64,000 nucleotides of DNA, from positions 1,426,001-1,490,000 of the forward strand of contig NC_015389.1 of NCBI RefSeq assembly GCF_000195315.1, written 5' to 3'. Shown here one piece after another: positions 2,029 to 62,276 of this stretch (positions are counted from its first letter, which is position 1; the number at the start of each line of letters is the position of its first letter). A program made the position numbers and the translations under genes. The DNA comes from Coriobacterium glomerans PW2. GTDB taxonomy: Bacteria; Actinomycetota; Coriobacteriia; Coriobacteriales; Coriobacteriaceae. Below the pieces are notes generated by a model that saw nothing but the letters and a program-made list of their open reading frames with translations, did not search any database and was not told the DNA's origin.

Positions 2029-4737
2029 TCAGGCTCCGCTCTCCCCCTGAGAGGACACCGTGAGATTCGCGAGCGCCGCAAGCCGGAGCACGAGATTCAC
2101 CGTCCCGACGTTGTAGCCCGCCTGCGCGTAGCGTCCGATCAGGCCTCCCCGCTCGGTCTGAACGAGCAGCGCCAGGGGAAGCTTGCCGGGCTCGGCGAAC
2201 ATGCGACGCGCGAGTCGCTCGGGAAGCTCGGAGAAGTCCTGCCGGCACAGATGCGCCTCGGGCAGCGCCGAGCGAGTTCGCGACAAGGTGGGATCGGAAA
2301 GCTGCGCCGCCGCAGGTACAACCAGCAGGATCGACAGCTCTGACGACTCGAGCTGCTCAGCTTGCTCGCGAAGCTCGTTGAGCAGGTGCTCGGTGGGCTC
2401 CTCGCGCAGCCTTAGAAAGCAGACGAGCGCGCAGTGTCCCTGCGCTTGGACCGCGACGCTCAGGTCGCCTCCATCCTCGGATTCGAGTGTGAAGTCTTCG
2501 AGAGGGATCCGCGTGAGCATGTCGCGCGCCTCGGGCTCGCGCACCCTGAGGCGCACCGCTACGCTCGCCGGATCACCCAGCTCGAAGTCGAGCTCTGAGA
2601 CCTGCTGGTCGCCTGCCGGCACCCGAACCGTGGAGGTGAGCCGATAGCAACCGCGCGGAAGGCGCATCTCGCGCAGAGCGGCCGGAAGCTGCTCGGCTCG
2701 CAGATCGAGCATATCGAACTTCAGGCGCATCCGCGCATCACCCGTGCCGGCCGACTGGATGAGCCGAGCCAGGCTCCAATCCCTGCCGTAGACGATCCCC
2801 TCTTGCGGAAAAGCGAGCTCGAGACAGCTTCCATCCGGCTCCTCCACTGCGCTCGCCTCCTTGAACGACCCGTGATCCCAGTACTGCGCCGTGAGGTCGA
2901 GCGGGTTCAATCTGGCGGGGATCCCGAGAGCCCGAGCGATGCATACGAACAGGGTGCGTCTGGTCTGCGGTGCAGCCTGACCGGAGCGAAGCGCGGCGGC
3001 AGGCGAGGCGACCAGCTCGAAGCGATGCTCATCGCGCGCGAATCCGATCTCGCGCTCGATGCGCTCCCAGATGCTCGCGGGGCGCTCGATCATCATCTCG
3101 CGCTCCTTGTCGCCAAAAGCTGCGACGATGGCTTCTGAGGCCGAGCTGAGCTGCTCGGTGTGCACGCGGGGACACAAAACGAAGGAGCGGAAGAGGCTGC
3201 GGGCGAGCTCTGGATCAGCTCCCTGGCGCTCGATGCGCTCCAAGCTCGCCTGCCTGAGCGACCGCGCATGGCGCAGATGGGCCTCCAGAATCGCTGCGGT
3301 CGCGTCGCAGCAGTCCTTCTTCGACAGCGTCGAGAGCAGCTCAAGTCGGTCCCGCTCGATATCGCGCAGCAGAAAGCGCTCGATCTCCGAGGCGTTGCCG
3401 AACGCGTCGCCGAACCACTCCCCTATCCGCGCCTCCCACGTATCGTCGCCGGCCAGCGCGCCCGCGGACCGATAGCGCTCGATCACGCGAGCCGCCGAGC
3501 GCGCCGAGCGCGCGCCGAGCGCATCCAGGCGCTCGCGTCGATGCTCGTCGGCGCGAGCTCTGCGCGCCCTTCCGATGCCGAGCAGCTCGGGAGCGGGCTG
3601 GCTTGAGGGCGCCGGATGGTCGAGGGGTGCGCGGACGTCCAGGTCGCACCAGGCGCGCTGGACCGGCTCGGATGCCGCGCAGGGAGCGGCAGCGAGCACG
3701 AGTTCGACCCGGTCGGTCTCAGATGTGCTCACAAGGGTCTCTGCCATGCTCGTCTCATCGCTGGCCAGCAGGCGCAGCGTTCCCATGCCGATCTCGATCG
3801 AGGCCGAGCCCTTCGCGTCGGTGATCACGTGGCCGATCTCGCGCCAGGCGGCTGCGTTCAGATAGCTCAGATCGATCTGGACGTGCCGGGCCGGGCTGCC
3901 GTCAGCGCGACGCACCTGCACGTTCAGCACCGTCGTCGGCGCGTAGAACGATGTGATGTTCTCGATGACCGTGCTGCCGTCGCGCGCGAGCCTGGCGCGA
4001 TCGCAGGTGAGATCGCACATGAAATCGGAGTACAGCACCGTCCGCACCATCATGGCGCGCCCGGAGGCCGCCGTGAACCAGCCGCGGTCGAGCACCTCCT
4101 CGGGCTCGCAAGCGCCCAGATAGCGCCAGCGGCCGTCCACGTGTACCTCGACCCATGCGTGGTTGTCATCGCAGTGCGCCCAGCAGGGCGTATAGATCTG
4201 ACGCGCGGGGATCCCGACGCTGCGCAGCGCGCTCACGAGAAACGTCGATTCCTCCCCGCAGCGGCCCCTTCCGCATCCCAGCAAGGCCAGCGGATCGAGC
4301 GTGCGACCGTCGGACTGCTGGTAGGTGACGCGTTCTGCGCACCAGTAATTCACCTCGATCACGGCTTCGACGTCCGTCTTTCCCGCGACGCGATCTCTGA
4401 GCGCGCGCCAGAAGACGTCTCGGCAATCGGTCAGGGGCTCGTTGTTGATGCGAGGGCAGGCGATATCATGCACGAAGATCCGCTCCGAGGCCTCGGCCGC
4501 CCAAGGCATCTCACGCCGAAGCATGACGGCGTGGGAGGCGAAGGACGCGAGCAATCCTGGGGCTGCATCGAACACATCGCTTATCGGCAGCGTCGCATAC
4601 AGGTAGCGAAGAAGCTCCGCGACGTCTTGCTGCTGGCTGGCAAGTTCGTGCTCGATCTGCTCGCTGAGCGGCTCGAGAAGATCGGCTCGCCTCGCAAGCC
4701 GCGCTCGCGTGTAATCGGTCAATGCCTGAGAGAACAT
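2029..4737 (-). CDS. Large transglutaminase-like (cysteine peptidase fold) protein with a C-terminal thioredoxin-like region
   Basis: A 902-residue protein with no signal peptide or membrane segment, so probably cytoplasmic. Residues about 125-240 form a transglutaminase-core domain: the nucleophile Cys160 in GRGRCGEES, His193 in HAWVEV, and the GACEPEEVLDRGWF segment characteristic of one bacterial transglutaminase-like subgroup in place of the usual Asp motif. Several beta-rich stretches follow. The last 130 residues (ALVCFLRLREEPTEHLL onward) read like a thioredoxin fold without a CxxC pair. The function of this architecture is unknown to me; peptide or glycopeptide hydrolysis is a guess. 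The ATG follows AGGAG at a longish spacing. It is downstream of the fucosidase gene in the same direction. Confidence 0.75.
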   Translation of the reverse strand: MFSQALTDYTRARLARRADLLEPLSEQIEHELASQQQDVAELLRYLYATLPISDVFDAAPGLLASFASHAVMLRREMPWAAEASERIFVHDIACPRINNEPLTDCRDVFWRALRDRVAGKTDVEAVIEVNYWCAERVTYQQSDGRTLDPLALLGCGRGRCGEESTFLVSALRSVGIPARQIYTPCWAHCDDNHAWVEVHVDGRWRYLGACEPEEVLDRGWFTAASGRAMMVRTVLYSDFMCDLTCDRARLARDGSTVIENITSFYAPTTVLNVQVRRADGSPARHVQIDLSYLNAAAWREIGHVITDAKGSASIEIGMGTLRLLASDETSMAETLVSTSETDRVELVLAAAPCAASEPVQRAWCDLDVRAPLDHPAPSSQPAPELLGIGRARRARADEHRRERLDALGARSARSAARVIERYRSAGALAGDDTWEARIGEWFGDAFGNASEIERFLLRDIERDRLELLSTLSKKDCCDATAAILEAHLRHARSLRQASLERIERQGADPELARSLFRSFVLCPRVHTEQLSSASEAIVAAFGDKEREMMIERPASIWERIEREIGFARDEHRFELVASPAAALRSGQAAPQTRRTLFVCIARALGIPARLNPLDLTAQYWDHGSFKEASAVEEPDGSCLELAFPQEGIVYGRDWSLARLIQSAGTGDARMRLKFDMLDLRAEQLPAALREMRLPRGCYRLTSTVRVPAGDQQVSELDFELGDPASVAVRLRVREPEARDMLTRIPLEDFTLESEDGGDLSVAVQAQGHCALVCFLRLREEPTEHLLNELREQAEQLESSELSILLVVPAAAQLSDPTLSRTRSALPEAHLCRQDFSELPERLARRMFAEPGKLPLALLVQTERGGLIGRYAQAGYNVGTVNLVLRLAALANLTVSSQGESGA

Positions 4738-27511: not shown

Positions 27512-27585
27512 GGCGACGTGGCCAAGTGGTAAGGCAGAGGCCTGCAAAGCCTTTATCCCCGGTTCGAATCCGGGCGTCGCCTCCA
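27512..27585 (+). tRNA. tRNA-Cys (anticodon GCA)
   Basis: The acceptor GGCGACG/CGTCGCC, anticodon stem-loop AGGCC-TGCAAAG-CCT and TPsiC GGTTCGAATCC are complete, with CCA encoded. It lies 40 bp after tRNA-Gly and is followed by a strong terminator. Confidence 0.95.
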
Positions 27586-37039: not shown

Positions 37040-38077
37040 CTACTGCTCTTGATTCGTGCCGCCGAGCCTGATCCGGGGATCAAGGAAGGCGTAGCTGATA
37101 TCGACGATCAGATTGATGATCATGACCACGATGACGATCATGGTGACCGACCCCATAACGATCGGGTAGTCGCGCTGGCCGATCGCACGGAAGATCTCGT
37201 AGCCGACACCGGGCCAGTTGAACACCGTCTCGGTCAGAATCGCACCGGCCATCATGGTGCCGAAGTCCATACCGATATAGGTGACAACGGGGATCAGCGC
37301 GTTTTTCAGCGCATGGTGGACGATGACGGAATGCCTGGAGAGACCCTTCGCCCGCGCCGTGCGAATGAAATCCTGGTTGAGCACGTCCAGAAGCTGGGAG
37401 CGCATGATGCGAGCGGTATAGGCGGTCGAGATTGAGGCGAGCGTGATGGATGGCATGATGAAGTACATCCAACCGGGGAACTGCGACATCGGGCTCAGGG
37501 CACCTGAGGGCGGAAGCGCGATAGCGCCGCCGGTGACCTGCGGGAGCCATACTCCGAAAAGCAGTTGAAGAAGCATGCCGAGCCAAAATGCCGGCATCGC
37601 CACGAGAACCGAGGTGACAAGCGTCACGAAGACATCCCAGAACGAATAGCGCTTCACGGCGGAGATGATGCCGGCGCTGACGCCCAGAATCGTCTCGATC
37701 ACGATGGCGACCACGGCGAGCTGTGCCGTGTAGGGATACTTCTGCGCGAGGATGTTCGAGACATCCTCACCGCGCTGATAGGATCTGCCAAGGTCACCAT
37801 GGGCAAGATTGCCCAGGTACAGGGCATAGCGCTCCCACAGGGGCGTAGGGATCGAATCTCCGTTCTCATCAAGCACGGGGCGGCCCTCCCCATCTGTCTT
37901 GATCAGATGGTAACGGGCCCGCAGATTCATCTCGGTCTGCGGATCGAGGGTCCGCTCGCCTGCGATGAGCTTGACCGGATCGCCGGGAACGATGTTCTGC
38001 ATGGCAAACATGATCAAGGTCACCCCAAGAAACACTGGGATGAACTGCAGCACGCGTTTGACGACGTATCTGAGCAC
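37040..38077 (-). CDS. oppB: Oligopeptide ABC transporter permease OppB
   Basis: A 346-residue permease. The best start is the GTG at 38077, which follows GAGAGGAG at 8 bases and gives MLRYVVKRVLQFIPVFLGVT; the longer in-frame reading has no ribosome site. The periplasmic region between helices 1 and 2 is longer than in the DppB-like protein at 8303, as is usual for Gram-positive OppB. The EAA loop is FIRTARAKGLSRHSVIVHHALKN. Confidence 0.92.
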   Translation of the reverse strand: MLRYVVKRVLQFIPVFLGVTLIMFAMQNIVPGDPVKLIAGERTLDPQTEMNLRARYHLIKTDGEGRPVLDENGDSIPTPLWERYALYLGNLAHGDLGRSYQRGEDVSNILAQKYPYTAQLAVVAIVIETILGVSAGIISAVKRYSFWDVFVTLVTSVLVAMPAFWLGMLLQLLFGVWLPQVTGGAIALPPSGALSPMSQFPGWMYFIMPSITLASISTAYTARIMRSQLLDVLNQDFIRTARAKGLSRHSVIVHHALKNALIPVVTYIGMDFGTMMAGAILTETVFNWPGVGYEIFRAIGQRDYPIVMGSVTMIVIVVMIINLIVDISYAFLDPRIRLGGTNQEQ

Positions 38078-49270: not shown

Positions 49271-50263
49271 TCACTCGGCTTGAGACGATTCGCTGTCAGC
49301 GATATCGTCTTCTTCCTCAGTTCCGGACTCCTTGACGATGTAAAGAGGACGGTTTTTGGTCTCGAGATAGGTCTTGGCGAGATACTGTCCCATGATTCCC
49401 AGGCAGAGTAGTTGGAGACCCCCCAAAAGGGTGACGATACATGCCAGCGAGGGCCAGCCGGCTACAGGTTCCCCCCAAAGAAATGTCTTCACCACGATGA
49501 AGAGGGCGCCGAAGATAGCTGCGAAGCACAGAATAATGCCTGCGATTGAAGATATGAACAGCGGCGCGGTGGAAAAAGCCATTATTCCATCGATGGAGTA
49601 CAGCACCAGGGAGATAAAGCTCCATTTTGTCTCCCCGGCGACACGGCGCGCGTTAACGTAGGGAATCCATCTCGTTTTGAACCCAACCCATCCGAAGATT
49701 CCCTTAGAGAACCGGTTGCGCTCCCTCAGCGAGAGGACAGCGTCCACCATGGATCGCCTCATGAGACGAAAGTCTCGGGCACCGTCCACCACATCCGTGT
49801 TTGAGATCCTATTGAAGATCCGATAGAAGCTCCGTGCGAACAGAGAGCGAATGGTTGGCTCGCCATCTCGATTCGCTCTGCGGGCAGCCACGTTGTCAAA
49901 TTCATTGTCTTGCAACATCGAGTACATGTCGAAGAGAAGCGAAGGGGGGTCTTGCAGATCCGCATCGATAGTCGCCACAAAGTCGCCGGAGGATCGCTCA
50001 AGCCCGGCGAAGATAGCCGCCTCCTTCCCAAAGTTGCGAGAGAAGGACAGCCAGCGAACTCGAGAGATGCCGGAAAGGCGCGCCGCGTTCATCTTGATCG
50101 ATGACAACGTAGCGTCTTGAGAGCCGTCATCTACGAAGATCAGTTCAAAAGAGACTCCGAACTCGTCGCGCATGCTACGTATGACCCGTTCCAGCTCGGT
50201 GACAAAAATCGGGAGGCTCTCGACCTCGTTATAGCATGGGACGACAACGGAAATCATATGCAT
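49271..50263 (-). CDS. Family 2 glycosyltransferase, GtrB/DPM1-like (polyprenyl-phosphate glycosyltransferase)
   Basis: A 330-residue enzyme that probably transfers a sugar from a nucleotide donor to undecaprenyl phosphate. The GT-A fold is clear: ISVVVPCYNEVESLPIFV, FVDDGSQDATL, FSRNFGKEAAIFAGLE, and the metal-binding DADLQDPPSLL. Two C-terminal helices lie at about residues 230-255 and 265-295. The acidic tail ends SGTEEEDDIADSESSQAE. The ATG at 50263 follows AGGAGGG. It is 48 bp downstream of the polytopic GT-C gene and would supply its lipid-linked sugar. Confidence 0.9.
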   Translation of the reverse strand: MHMISVVVPCYNEVESLPIFVTELERVIRSMRDEFGVSFELIFVDDGSQDATLSSIKMNAARLSGISRVRWLSFSRNFGKEAAIFAGLERSSGDFVATIDADLQDPPSLLFDMYSMLQDNEFDNVAARRANRDGEPTIRSLFARSFYRIFNRISNTDVVDGARDFRLMRRSMVDAVLSLRERNRFSKGIFGWVGFKTRWIPYVNARRVAGETKWSFISLVLYSIDGIMAFSTAPLFISSIAGIILCFAAIFGALFIVVKTFLWGEPVAGWPSLACIVTLLGGLQLLCLGIMGQYLAKTYLETKNRPLYIVKESGTEEEDDIADSESSQAE

Positions 50264-50310: not shown

Positions 50311-51951
50311 TCAACATTCCTCGACCTCGGAAACGATGTACCAGACCTGCTCATAGGGCCTAAACAGCGCCTTGTCGGAGCGAATGATGAACCTGTTGTC
50401 AAACGACTTATTGAGATCAATGTGGGTCTGTCGTATGACGCTCCGGTGAGAAACTTCGCTTTCAATTCCTGCATAACGCGAAATCACGTTGAAACGCTCT
50501 CCCCGCATATGCATTCCCCAGTTGCCAGCTTGATAGAAATTTATCCCCGGGCTGTACGCCTCGTATGCCAGTTGTTGAGACCATCTGTCGACGAAATTGA
50601 TCCTCCGCTCGGGTGCAGTTATTGCGAGTAGGCCCATACAAGATGCATCCTGCGTCCATACGGAGTGAATGGCGGTCCCCTGCTCGCGAAGCTCCTGCAC
50701 GGGTTCGATATTCTGTGGCGAGTACAGAGTCTCGATGAGTTTGAACTTTCCCGTTATAGACAGAACCAGCAAAACTCCTATGATTCCGACCGGAGCAAAC
50801 GGTTTTGCTGCCAACGCCACAAGGCGGGCATGGTAAAACATTCCTATGCTAGAACCACGTCCCGCAGCAGGTCGGTTGCGGACCTTCGGCTTAACTCGAC
50901 TATCATCTGACGAGCCGAATAACGCCTGAGCGCACGAGAGCAGCAGCGGCCCGATTGCGACATACAGATATCGGTATTGAAAGATTGGTTTGCCGATCGC
51001 CGACAATACCAAAGTTGATACCATCAGACTGGCGAAGAGCTGGAGCCCTCCTCTGCACCTCCGATCGCGTCGATAGGCGAAAACAGCGGCAAGGACACAT
51101 AGCATTGCCAACGATATAGCGAATGGGTCGGGCTTCGAATATATCGATCCGATGGCAACGCCACAAGGAAGTCCGAACGCTGAGGCAACCGCATCGGCAA
51201 CCCACGGGTCAATAAAAGGGAAGAGAACGGCCTGCACAAGCGCATCGGGATAGCGAACCGTAATCCAAAAACCCGATTCGACTTTCACAATCTGCCGGAG
51301 GAAGATGATCAGCCATGGCAGGTAACACAAAACTTGCAACACTGCACCGACAACAAGACCAGCGCGTACAGATCGATCAGCATGAGTCCGTGTAATACCC
51401 GCATATAACGCGACAACAATGAACAGCGCGCAGATCGTGCCGAAATAGTGCAGATACGCCGATGCGAGACTCGCAGCATGAAATGTGACCCACCAGCTCA
51501 GTGGGATACGCGCGCTTTGGGCGTCACGGCAGCAGACGCGATAGATCCTTGCGGCAAAGATAAAGCACAGGGTCACGGCAAAGGCGCACCAGGAGTACAT
51601 GCGGATCTCTACAGACATGTGAGAAACGTAGGGCGTGAACAAGGCAAGAAATGAGAACATCGCACCGACGCGCTGTCCGTAATCGCGTCGTACGCAGCCG
51701 AATCCTAGTAGTCCCAGCGAAATCGATCCCGCCACCGAGAACAGCCGGCACGCCAAGATTCCGCCACCTGACACCTGACGGAGAATCCAGAGTGCGATGT
51801 AGTAGAGAACCGGATGAACATCAGCCGAGCCGATGCGAATAATATCCGAGATCGAGTGGTTGGAGATCGCAAGGCTGTAGCTCTCGTCAAACCAAATGTT
51901 ACCGTGAAACGCACCCGCCAGAAGATAGGCGCTCCCAAGGGCAATCACCAT
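50311..51951 (-). CDS. Polytopic GT-C glycosyltransferase (ArnT/PMT-like), probably phase-variable
   Basis: The visible frame gives 546 residues with about ten membrane helices and the GT-C catalytic loop FHGNIWFDESYSLAIS right after helix 1. It probably moves a lipid-linked sugar onto a surface polymer outside the membrane. The annotatable ATG at 51951 has no ribosome site and lies inside helix 1. In-frame codons upstream (RRTRIESLVIFHL) complete that helix with a positive-inside tail, but they run into a G10 tract and no in-frame start exists. A frame one base off carries the promoter-proximal start at 52103, so the full gene is 50311-52103 when the tract has 8 or 11 G. As assembled the gene is OFF. 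Confidence 0.85.
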   Translation of the reverse strand: MVIALGSAYLLAGAFHGNIWFDESYSLAISNHSISDIIRIGSADVHPVLYYIALWILRQVSGGGILACRLFSVAGSISLGLLGFGCVRRDYGQRVGAMFSFLALFTPYVSHMSVEIRMYSWCAFAVTLCFIFAARIYRVCCRDAQSARIPLSWWVTFHAASLASAYLHYFGTICALFIVVALYAGITRTHADRSVRAGLVVGAVLQVLCYLPWLIIFLRQIVKVESGFWITVRYPDALVQAVLFPFIDPWVADAVASAFGLPCGVAIGSIYSKPDPFAISLAMLCVLAAVFAYRRDRRCRGGLQLFASLMVSTLVLSAIGKPIFQYRYLYVAIGPLLLSCAQALFGSSDDSRVKPKVRNRPAAGRGSSIGMFYHARLVALAAKPFAPVGIIGVLLVLSITGKFKLIETLYSPQNIEPVQELREQGTAIHSVWTQDASCMGLLAITAPERRINFVDRWSQQLAYEAYSPGINFYQAGNWGMHMRGERFNVISRYAGIESEVSHRSVIRQTHIDLNKSFDNRFIIRSDKALFRPYEQVWYIVSEVEEC

Positions 51952-51974
51952 GAGATGGAATATTACAAGAGACT

Positions 51975-52103
51975 CTATCCGAGTACGACGCCCCCCCCCC
52001 GATTCAAAACATCAATGATCTCAGTCGATAGGCAAGGGATCTCTGCTTTCGGTTGATTCAAAATCCTCATTCCGCTGTGGTCAAACAGGCAACTATCGAT
52101 CAT
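51975..52103 (-). CDS. 5' coding part of the phase-variable GT-C gene (OFF-frame leader, 42 residues)
   Basis: From the ATG at 52103 the frame reads MIDSCLFDHSGMRILNQPKA and on through EIPCLSTEIIDVLNRGG into the G10 tract, then VVLG-stop at 51975. A second in-frame ATG is at 52070. The ATG at 52103 is about 20 bp downstream of a TATAAT box. If one G is added, or two removed, this frame joins the GT-C frame without a break. Ribosome sites at both ATGs are weak. Confidence 0.6.
   Translation of the reverse strand: MIDSCLFDHSGMRILNQPKAEIPCLSTEIIDVLNRGGGVVLG
51991..52000. repeat. Homopolymer tract C10 (G10 on the coding strand)
   Basis: Ten consecutive C residues on the plus strand, flanked by G on both sides. 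It is by far the longest homopolymer noticed in the window and lies within the 5' coding part of a surface glycosyltransferase gene, the classic position of a slipped-strand phase switch. Confidence 0.9.
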
Positions 52104-52121
52104 TTCTGAAGGCGATATCGA

Positions 52122-52127
52122 TTATAC
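52122..52127 (-). promoter_or_regulatory. Putative -10 box of the GT-C/GtrB-like operon
   Basis: A TATAAT on the minus strand lies about 20 bp upstream of the ATG at 52103. No good -35 is visible at 17 bp. It supports a real start upstream of the G tract. Confidence 0.5.
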
Positions 52128-59460: not shown

Positions 59461-61914
59461 CTAGAGCGCCAATCCCCCACGGCGGCGCCAGACAAGCGTC
59501 GCCGCGCCGAGTGCCGCCGTCAGCGCCAGTGCGCACGCACCTGCCTGCGCGGGTCCGGACCCGAAGGCACCGGTGCCCGGCAGGGTCGGTGCGGCCTGGT
59601 AGCTCATCGTCACATCGATGGCACCGGGCGTCACCGGCTCGTAGTGCTTGCCATCGATCGTGACGGTCCCACCCTCTGCGATGAGGATCTCGCTTACCGA
59701 GCCGCAGAGCTGGAAGCCAGCGGGGGCCATCGTGTTGAAGAGATAGTAGTCGCCCGGAGCCAGACCGTATAGGGCTATCGAGCCATCGGTACCCGACACC
59801 CGGGGCCAGCCGTTGGGCCCGACCGGGTGGGTCTTGTCCTTATCGATGAAGACCTCGTTGGCCCATTTTGAAGTGTCCGAGACCTTACTCGAGTGGCTCA
59901 AGACGTAGCCGGCACCGGCAACCAAAGCGCCACCTGAATCGGCGCTGTGCACCGTGAGAGACATGGAGACCTTGGACTTCCACTGGGCGTAGAGCATCAC
60001 GGTGGCATCTTGCATCTTGCTCAGATCACCAATCAGAGTCTCCTGGTCGTCGAGATGCTCTCCGCTGCCGTCGGCCATGGTGTTCCACCCGGTAAACTCG
60101 AAGTCCTTTCCACGGGTGTACGTGTTTCTCGGCAGCTTCAAAGTCTCGCCGTAGATCTTGGTCTGTGCCGGCATCAAGGTGCCCGAGCCCTTGTTCGGCA
60201 AGAAATTTATCGTGTAGCGCACGGCAGGAACCGTGCAATCGAGCGGCGCGGCACCCTTGTCGTCGTATACGTTGTAGCTGCGCCGCGTCGCACCTGCTGG
60301 ATAGGCGAATTCAGTCTGTCCGACGACGGTGACGCTCAGGTGCTCTTCGTTGGGCGTCAGCTTGCCCTTGGGGTCTTCTTTCTGCGGCAGCGTCTCGAAG
60401 CCGAAGTTGACCTTAGTGGAGCCAGGGGGAACGGTTACCGAATACTCTCCCAAGCACCCGCCGTTATCGCGCGATATGCTCAGCCTGAAGCTCTGCTTTG
60501 CGAAGACTGTCATGTGCGCCCTCGTGAAATTATTCGTGATCCGTTTAGCAGAGACCTCCTTCATGGGAGTCATGACGACGAGCGTGCCGTCCGTTTGAGA
60601 AAAGGTTATATTGTCGTCCGTCAGCGTCGGAACTTCGGCCCATGAGGGGGGCACGAACACCTTGGTTATTTTCGAGCCCGTAAACGTCGACGATTTCGCT
60701 CCGCTGCTATCGCGCACAAGCTTAAAACTCTCCGGCGGACCGTTGAGATACAGCCGATCGTAGTTGGTGCCGTCAAATGAGGCGATCCCGATAGTAAGCG
60801 GTTTGTCTTTGATTTCGGGTGCGTTCAGCACCAGATCGTACAAGTTGGTGTTTCCGTTGACATCGGGCTCCTTGCCCAAGCTAGGACAGTCATGGAAAGC
60901 GCGTGCCCCGATGGAGGTGACCGTCGTGTTCGTCGTCAGACCTGTCGAGGTCAGACTCTTGCAGTCGTAGAAGGGACCCATCTCACCATCCATACCGAGA
61001 TCTGTCACAGACTTGTTTTTTTCAAGTCCGGTCGTCTTCAGATTCTGATCGTTATCGAAGGCGTTTGCGCGCAGCTGCTTTACCGAGTCATTATCGGCCA
61101 AACCGGTCTTATCGTAGTTGCCGTTGGAGAATGCACCCCCATCGATGAGAGTGACACTTGAATTCTCAGCAAGGCCGGTCTCTCCGATCCTACCATCATG
61201 GTTGTAGGCCTCGCGCCCGATGCTGAGGATGGTTGAGTCCTTGTCCGCGAGGCCGGTGGACGTGATGTCATAGCACTGCCAGAAGGCCATTGAGCCGACA
61301 CGGTTCACCGTGTACACGTCGTTGTTGTAGACGATAGTGTGCGGCAGCGTCACATCGCCGCTCGGCGCGGGATCCAGAACCTCTCCCTGCGTGCTTTGAA
61401 ATGCGTTCTCCTTGTTGACTCCGCTGCCGATCTCCACCGTTCTGTTATCTGGATCGACGCTCGTGACGCCATACTGGCATCTCCATACCTTGCCGCCTAC
61501 AGAAATGGACCCCCAGAATCGCGTGCCCACGACGGCCGCGCGAGGCGACGTGGCACCAGAGTTCTCATTCGTGGGCGACGCCTGATGTTTCGTGCCATCT
61601 GAGGCCGGTTGCAAACCACCGCCCGCCCCGGATTTCTTGGCGCCCGTCGAGCCATCGGTAGCGGCCGCATCGGCTTGTTGAGCGCGGTCGCCACTTTTGC
61701 CGTCGATGCGCTCGGGATCGGTTGTCTTGTGCGCGCTCACGCGACTCTCCTTGACGGACGAGCCCTGCTGACCGGCATCCGCCCCGGAATGCACCCCGGG
61801 GCTCGCCGCGCCTTGGGCCCACATGACCGCAGCGCTCGACGCAAGCAGTGTCGCAGCGACGCAGCCGATGAGAACGGCCGACCTCACAGCAGATGTCCAC
61901 GTGCGCCGGCTCAC
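59461..61914 (-). CDS. LPxTG-anchored BspA-like leucine-rich-repeat surface protein
   Basis: An 817-residue surface adhesin. The signal peptide starts MSRRTWTSAVRSAVLIGCVA with likely cleavage after MWAQG. A Ser/Lys-rich linker follows to about residue 140, then LRR_5 repeats with TGL-x-x-N-x-S/T-V motifs (about 205-400), a beta region (400-540), an InlB B-like repeat (YTINFLPNKGSGTLMPAQTK to LYAQWK, about 560-640), a Cna-B/SpaA-type domain (about 650-760) and the sorting signal LPGTG, a helix, and RRRGG at the C-terminus. No sortase gene is nearby. The GTG at 61914 is chosen because it gives a clean signal peptide and is conserved in the duplicate; an ATG at 61986 is possible. Confidence 0.88.
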   Translation of the reverse strand: MSRRTWTSAVRSAVLIGCVAATLLASSAAVMWAQGAASPGVHSGADAGQQGSSVKESRVSAHKTTDPERIDGKSGDRAQQADAAATDGSTGAKKSGAGGGLQPASDGTKHQASPTNENSGATSPRAAVVGTRFWGSISVGGKVWRCQYGVTSVDPDNRTVEIGSGVNKENAFQSTQGEVLDPAPSGDVTLPHTIVYNNDVYTVNRVGSMAFWQCYDITSTGLADKDSTILSIGREAYNHDGRIGETGLAENSSVTLIDGGAFSNGNYDKTGLADNDSVKQLRANAFDNDQNLKTTGLEKNKSVTDLGMDGEMGPFYDCKSLTSTGLTTNTTVTSIGARAFHDCPSLGKEPDVNGNTNLYDLVLNAPEIKDKPLTIGIASFDGTNYDRLYLNGPPESFKLVRDSSGAKSSTFTGSKITKVFVPPSWAEVPTLTDDNITFSQTDGTLVVMTPMKEVSAKRITNNFTRAHMTVFAKQSFRLSISRDNGGCLGEYSVTVPPGSTKVNFGFETLPQKEDPKGKLTPNEEHLSVTVVGQTEFAYPAGATRRSYNVYDDKGAAPLDCTVPAVRYTINFLPNKGSGTLMPAQTKIYGETLKLPRNTYTRGKDFEFTGWNTMADGSGEHLDDQETLIGDLSKMQDATVMLYAQWKSKVSMSLTVHSADSGGALVAGAGYVLSHSSKVSDTSKWANEVFIDKDKTHPVGPNGWPRVSGTDGSIALYGLAPGDYYLFNTMAPAGFQLCGSVSEILIAEGGTVTIDGKHYEPVTPGAIDVTMSYQAAPTLPGTGAFGSGPAQAGACALALTAALGAATLVWRRRGGLAL

Positions 61915-62276
61915 AATGCAACCGATTCCACATGAGGGGCCTGCGACACCACAGTGGCGGCAAGCCGGTCGCGAAGGCGCGCGCAACCTGAGATACTATG
62001 CGATCCGCCAAGGGTCGCTGATGAATGTTGGCACTCGTCGATCGCAGAGACGACCGCGATAAAGGTGCATCCCAAAAGGGGGCACATGGAGTTTGCAGCT
62101 AAATTCGGCCCCATAGAATAGCCCCCTTCCAGCTAAAACGGTCTTCCATCTGGAGCGGGACAGAGCGACATTCCCGCGCGGTAATGTAGTTTTCATTCTA
62201 TCATTTTGTCCGGAATCTCAATCAGATTATGTTCATTCATACAAATGTCACAAGACATTCAGGTCTCTCGATCAGT
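61915..62276. other. Interval between uvrA and the adhesin gene
   Basis: No gene seen. An inverted repeat AAGGGGGC (62076-62083)/GCCCCCTT (62121-62128) and a direct repeat of CAGCTAAA occur in it, followed by an AT-rich stretch. It may hold the uvrA transcript end and the adhesin promoter. Confidence 0.4.

Follow-up and report, generated by a model that had tools for sequence, protein, structure and literature searches.

At one locus of the Coriobacterium glomerans PW2 genome, a run of ten G lies between a short upstream frame and a long one that probably encodes a GT-C glycosyltransferase, and the arrangement is likely, judging from the sequence, to represent a phase-variable contingency locus operating by slipped-strand replication at the G10 tract. 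The GT-C gene is probably stored in the OFF state in this sequence. The locus was analyzed within a stretch of 64,000 nucleotides (contig NC_015389.1, positions 1,426,001 to 1,490,000; hereafter the window), and its features are listed in Table 1 together with those of other tract loci in the genome and in relatives.

Table 1. Features of the GT-C locus (window positions) and other G-tract loci in C. glomerans (genome positions, with locus handle and position where assigned) and in other Coriobacteriaceae (locus handles).
Feature	Position or locus	Strand	Remarks
GT2 polyprenyl-phosphate-type glycosyltransferase, GtrB/PgfS-like	49271..50263	-	PF00535, 3e-28
Putative GT-C (PMT_2-like) frame	50311..51990	-	first helix starts directly behind the tract (RRTRIESLVIFHLMVIALGSAYLLAGAFHGNIWFDE)
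Internal Met of GT-C frame	51949..51951	-	only nearby 5' ATG/GTG/TTG; mid helix 1; no Shine-Dalgarno
Upstream short frame, presumed translation start	51975..52103	-	42 codons from ATG 52103; second ATG 52070
G10 homopolymer, proposed slippage site	51991..52000	-	exactly ten G, coding strand
TATAAT hexamer, possible -10 element	52121..52126	-	17 nt before ATG 52103; weak
SpaA-domain frame, 886 codons	1187342		SD GGAGG, MRRWLQPLSHGTKDSDKKIAHRRPMTALVILLIMITCAATLLSSGFADTPVIGG (signal peptide), G10; now out of frame
LRR/SpaA frame, 910 codons	387106		SD-led MRCRLKNE...MKKNT, G11; out of frame
Leader before 97-codon frame	985876		SD-led leader, G12; out of frame with the 97-codon frame
Leader similar to that at 985876	124380		in frame at G10, before LRR gene carrying TGA
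AAA_14-type ATPase frame	415529 (L039 5030)		interrupted by G13 at YLVCGG...PAG stretch; 9 or 12 keeps frame
G tract before ATG	38054 (L034 6054)		7-9 nt before ATG, Shine-Dalgarno distance
G tract before ATG	1676409 (L048 14610)		7-9 nt before ATG, Shine-Dalgarno distance
GH25/ChW enzyme	L052		tract in or behind signal peptide; in frame
Large adhesin	L057		tract in or behind signal peptide; out of frame
VWA/GBS104-type LPXTG tip protein	L083		tract in or behind signal peptide; out of frame
SpaA/pilin-D1 protein	L084		tract in or behind signal peptide; in frame
999-codon protein	L086		tract in or behind signal peptide; out of frame
Pilus-like region	L055 (G005, contig 3, 241300-251500)		VWA tip-type gene with G10 and SpaA-domain gene with G11

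An earlier, sequence-only reading of this stretch had described a coding-strand tract of ten G, an upstream frame opening at one of two ATG codons (52103 or 52070) and closing at 51975, and a GT-C frame whose sole start of its own is an ATG inside helix 1 without a ribosome site, and all three descriptions were confirmed. The upstream frame enters the tract reading ...LSTEIIDVLNRGGG and, at the present tract length, encounters a stop codon just past it (51977-51975). Behind the tract, 559 codons are open from the first base onward (50314-51990), with no ATG, GTG, or TTG upstream of ATG 51951. Our computation reproduced the claim that the frames join at 8 or 11 G only: tract lengths of n = 2 mod 3 connect the two frames, other lengths stop early, and a single-base change in the tract thereby toggles between a full-length and a truncated GT-C product. 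The present G10 allele is predicted to be unable to make a normal GT-C protein from any ordinary start. Because the 559 codons stay open without a normal in-frame start, the loss of the frame appears to be recent or reversible.

Regarding the 5' end, the upstream-frame start codon of the GT-C gene is weakly supported. A good Shine-Dalgarno sequence was sought before ATG 52103 and ATG 52070, and neither has one, while the frame upstream of the tract (about 40 open codons) is not significant by itself. The upstream TATAAT box mentioned in the earlier reading is present as a hexamer, but no recognizable -35 element accompanies it and no promoter was called there. Codon log-odds were considered as proof of the upstream frames and discarded, being too weak on 30-50 codons and with some antisense frames scoring as well. 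Octa-G positions in the window numbered 3 against 1.6 expected from dinucleotide shuffles, a difference that is not significant alone, and an Rfam search near the locus gave no match.

The downstream frame is probably a GT-C glycosyltransferase, an assignment based on weak direct family evidence and on its homologues. Profile searches of Pfam and NCBIfam with the frame itself gave no match, and no solved structure was found by sequence search. Homologues at approximately 30-40% identity were present in 11 of the 67 genomes of the family and in a few other Coriobacteriales; a distant homologue, L028, passed the Pfam PMT_2 profile (39.2 bits against a cut-off of 26.1), while L026 and L022 scored below that cut-off. 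A WFDE motif behind helix 1 (frame residues 33-36) was invariant across the aligned homologues. The earlier proposal of a surface GT-C enzyme receives some support from L028 and the WFDE motif and finds no Pfam match in the query itself. The structure model, of low confidence (pLDDT 49), had a body rich in helices, with a C-terminal part of mixed structure, and Foldseek searches with this poor model returned methyltransferase-like noise, that is, meaningless matches.

The adjacent GT2 gene starts at ATG 50263, preceded by the Shine-Dalgarno sequence AGGAGG at 7 nt and situated 47 bp past the GT-C stop, in agreement with the GtrB-like partner that had been placed 48 bp downstream. Against the NCBIfam PgfS profile, it reached 3.6e-83 and 279 bits, below the equivalog cut-off of 500; by sequence, the partner therefore appears most PgfS-like, yet it is not classed as PgfS. 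The GT-C/GT2 pair is located between uvrC and rapZ, with one unassigned 385-codon ORF adjoining uvrC, and the two genes are adjacent in several relatives too. Elsewhere in the window, 7 kb from the GT-C locus, lies a gene for an LRR/SpaA surface protein (59461-61986) that has a signal peptide and no G tract.

The homologues also bear on the true N-terminus. It is very improbable that GT-C is translated from the internal Met 51951, the sole ATG in the frame, with the tract forming a harmless 5' leader: this Met has no Shine-Dalgarno sequence, and homologues have basic residues and a portion of helix 1 that a start there would remove. The earlier reading had named homologues beginning at the internal Met as an observation that would speak against it, and all those inspected open well upstream of the equivalent position, with basic residues preceding helix 1 as anticipated from its argument that a positive-inside N-terminus needs the stretch behind the tract. 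Since the homologues extend above Met 51951 and two of them align from the first residue past the G10 tract, RRTRIESLVIFHL would be coding sequence. A G run of at least 6 at the 5' end was found in none of the GT-C homologues searched in the family, which argues that the tract at this gene is a lineage-specific gain.

The C. glomerans genome, a single contig of 2,115,681 bases (2.116 Mb), is rich in long G runs. Exact counts were 28 for G7, 5 for G8, 9 for G9, 6 for G10, 5 for G11, 1 for G12, and 1 for G13; the fall-off reverses after G8, and the 22 runs of G9-G13, including the one at the GT-C locus, form a second mode, compared to approximately 3 runs of at least G9 expected when the G4-G7 decay of the window is extrapolated. 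The neighbourhoods of all 22 tracts were fetched and annotated. The majority lay away from the 5' end of any long frame and many were intergenic, and not every G tract in the genome acts as a frame switch. For 5 of the 13 genes encoding LRR_5 and/or SpaA domains, a tract is located 5' of the gene at a distance of up to 700 bp (P ~2e-7). In a weaker test, 3 of the 22 tracts coincided with the 5' end of frames that span at least 500 codons, compared to 1.8% by chance (P ~0.007). A search of the genome for the MutS domain MutS_V found none (the control search was positive in 11 of 14 genomes), and a NucS-like match reached only 21 bits against a cut-off of 24. These repair results, the many intergenic tracts, and the GT-C homologues without a tract are what would be expected of an ordinary pseudogene, in which chance expansion of a G run without MutSL repair broke GT-C for good and the gene will decay. 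We consider this unlikely, as the 559 codons are free of stops, the GT2 partner is intact, and the clustering of tracts at LRR/SpaA genes and behind the signal peptides of relatives would not be expected under neutral expansion. Position-wise counts over 67 tracts were also made for a shared DNA element around them (a CTCnnAGAAAAG-like sequence after several, A-runs before), which was rejected: no motif emerged, just weak AT enrichment at -11 to -7.

As far as the genome was examined, the GT-C gene is the sole glycosyltransferase gene with a tract. The clearest parallel to it is the SpaA locus at 1187342, which is split exactly behind the signal peptide. At 985876, the 97-codon frame and an LRR/SpaA gene share an ATGA, in which the stop of the former overlaps the start of the latter. 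The leaders at 985876 and 124380 lend weak support only, and the LRR frame at 124380 carries a TGA; they were considered as one conserved phase-variable family and set aside, sharing GGGAPRK(A/G)S past the tract and little else that is convincing. At L035 5629-5820 (genome ~124,630-124,820), an LRR/SpaA surface gene whose signal peptide is intact carries an in-frame TGA after about 60 codons, past which its frame goes on. The tracts at 38054 and 1676409 would tune translation and not switch it. A 1174-codon ORF at 27542 was dropped as an in-frame case; its real start is probably behind the tract, which makes the tract a 5' leader. Two further observations concern tracts in other contexts. At L042 5404-5455 (genome 546404 and 546445), a C10 and a G11 face each other between an LRR gene and a SpaA gene and make up the two arms of a GC-rich hairpin, which may be a terminator of variable length. 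At L041 4095-5021 (genome ~496,100-497,020), a CRISPR array (type I-E-like repeats, period ~62 bp) ends at a G9 that seems to have grown inside the degenerate terminal repeat (GCGGGGAGCAC vs GCGGGGGGGGGCAT).

The comparison was extended to a family set of 67 genomes, Collinsella included, from which 40 stretches of relatives were inspected. G10 runs occur in all but three of the genomes; in fragmented assemblies, some of those counted come from contig ends. Tracts in or behind signal peptides, in frame in some genes and out of frame in others, were identified in relatives at genes for surface proteins (Table 1). The most telling case is the L057 adhesin, which has a G10 tract and is out of frame in one species, G030 (L121), while in another, G016 (L123), it has G9 and is in frame, with about 95% identity over ~600 bp around the tract and flanks about 95-98% identical; it has G9 in frame in G060 (L122) and G9 out of frame in G069 (L124). 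The one-G difference between these orthologous adhesins shows change in the DNA tract itself. L092, the closest orthologue (76%) of the L083 tip protein, carries no tract and its signal peptide is intact, which indicates that tracts are gained and lost. The N-terminus of L132 (G068) is the same as that of L031 (Collinsella stercoris). In the pilus-like region L055, tip and backbone could vary independently. In L089 (G031), adjacent paralogous genes with Flp/TadE-like N-termini carry tracts at 3064 and 6936 (C+G10 and G11) that are equivalent in length and lie few codons past a plausible start, and both genes are apparently out of frame.

These data bear on two further explanations. The first is a homopolymer error in sequencing or assembly, with a true tract of 8 or 11 G and a gene plainly in frame. 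Older sequencing chemistry struggles with G10, and an error of one or two bases would give an identical picture; nevertheless, we regard this explanation as rather unlikely, since a whole population of G9-G13 runs exists in the genome, in-frame and out-of-frame genes both occur there and in relatives that were sequenced independently, and orthologues with clean flanks show a difference of one G. Even if the length were wrong, the GT-C gene would still span an unstable tract, a caveat already voiced in the earlier reading, with which we agree. The second is that RNA polymerase slips, or ribosomes shift frame, at the G10 tract, which would yield mixed messages from a fixed DNA sequence and low, constant GT-C expression. 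Long homopolymer runs are established substrates for slippage by RNA polymerase, according to the literature cited in PMC9187656. The DNA-level difference in length between orthologues speaks against this explanation, which is decidedly unlikely as an alternative, although both processes can coexist. The slipped-strand, phase-variable design put forward in the sequence-only reading is instead supported by its recurrence at surface genes of the genome and of relatives and by the G10/G9 adhesin pair.

Under slipped-strand phase variation, replication slippage at G10 would alter the tract length, mostly by one base per event. At lengths of 2 mod 3 (8, 11), the upstream-frame start would be fused to the GT-C membrane glycosyltransferase. 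At a length of 10, translation would end a few codons past the tract, no GT-C would be made, and polarity would probably deprive the close-spaced GT2 partner of expression. Surface glycan or glycoprotein modification would consequently differ from cell to cell within a population, and the GT-C locus would be part of a wider poly-G set in the genome and the family, consisting mostly of adhesins and pili. For this locus, we infer the switching of the GT-C gene, the exact start codon, the polarity on GT2, and the substrate or glycan target.

Most work on poly-G phase variation has concerned proteobacterial pathogens, with Bifidobacterium added lately. The closest known system is the G-tract switch of sortase pili in Bifidobacterium breve UCC2003 (bbr_0113 and bbr_1889), in which a short ORF, led by an SD and encoding a secretion signal, precedes a G-tract, and the long ORF behind it has an annotated start without an SD; the G-tract was proven to slip, and joining the frames gave pili (Penno et al. 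2022, PMC9187656). Both systems are actinobacterial and share an upstream ORF, a G-tract, and a long ORF joined at one length in three, and the Coriobacteriaceae pilin loci L083, L084, and L055 match the B. breve switch closely. The locus described here differs in encoding a membrane glycosyltransferase, in belonging to the class Coriobacteriia, and in its weaker upstream start, and length variation is known in B. breve by experiment. In Campylobacter jejuni NCTC 11168, 29 poly-G/C loci of at least 7 were reported (PMC4965091), and its contingency loci include glycan genes such as Cj1295 (PMC3068675). Genome-wide long G tracts and ON/OFF control by frame are common to both organisms, and many of those in C. 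jejuni are in surface-glycan genes; in contrast, C. glomerans belongs to another phylum and its coding tracts are mostly in adhesins and pili. Likewise, the protein-glycosylation (pgl) glycosyltransferase genes of Neisseria carry an intragenic G-tract by which the frame is toggled, as summarized in PMC9187656, although their glycosyltransferase families differ from GT-C here. Among Actinomycetota commensals, phase-variable homopolymeric tracts are described in Gardnerella (PMC11287997) and homopolymeric tracts in Cutibacterium acnes (PMC4746626); this homopolymer variation is alike but concerns other genes and other classes.

When considering the gene pair, the Pgf protein glycosylation system of Streptococcus mutans comprises the GT2 enzyme PgfS with membrane partner proteins, and we know of no phase variation in it. 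The likeness consists of a PgfS-like GT2 beside a GT-C-like membrane protein, with the C. glomerans GT2 scoring 279 against 500. The sequence-only reading did not know of this design in Coriobacteriia, and our search of the open-access literature (subscription journals lay outside it) likewise turned up no paper on homopolymer phase variation in either Coriobacteriia or Collinsella. The kind of switch itself is already known, with slippage proven in the actinobacterial genus Bifidobacterium, and it is apparently new to Coriobacteriia.

Taken across the family, we lean slightly towards a poly-G phasome in Coriobacteriaceae (Coriobacterium, Collinsella, and relatives) that acts on sortase pili, LRR adhesins, and, here, a surface glycosyltransferase, with the tracts in Shine-Dalgarno or leader positions tuning expression and not switching it. 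It would be a strategy used generally in this common gut lineage and in an insect symbiont. If this is true, annotations of Collinsella and relatives would systematically miss or truncate adhesins whose starts are lost behind out-of-frame tracts, and OFF copies would be counted as missing or as pseudogenes when strains are compared. In Coriobacteriia, pili, adhesins, and surface glycosylation would then be under poly-G control, and the surface kept by an insect gut symbiont would be switchable.
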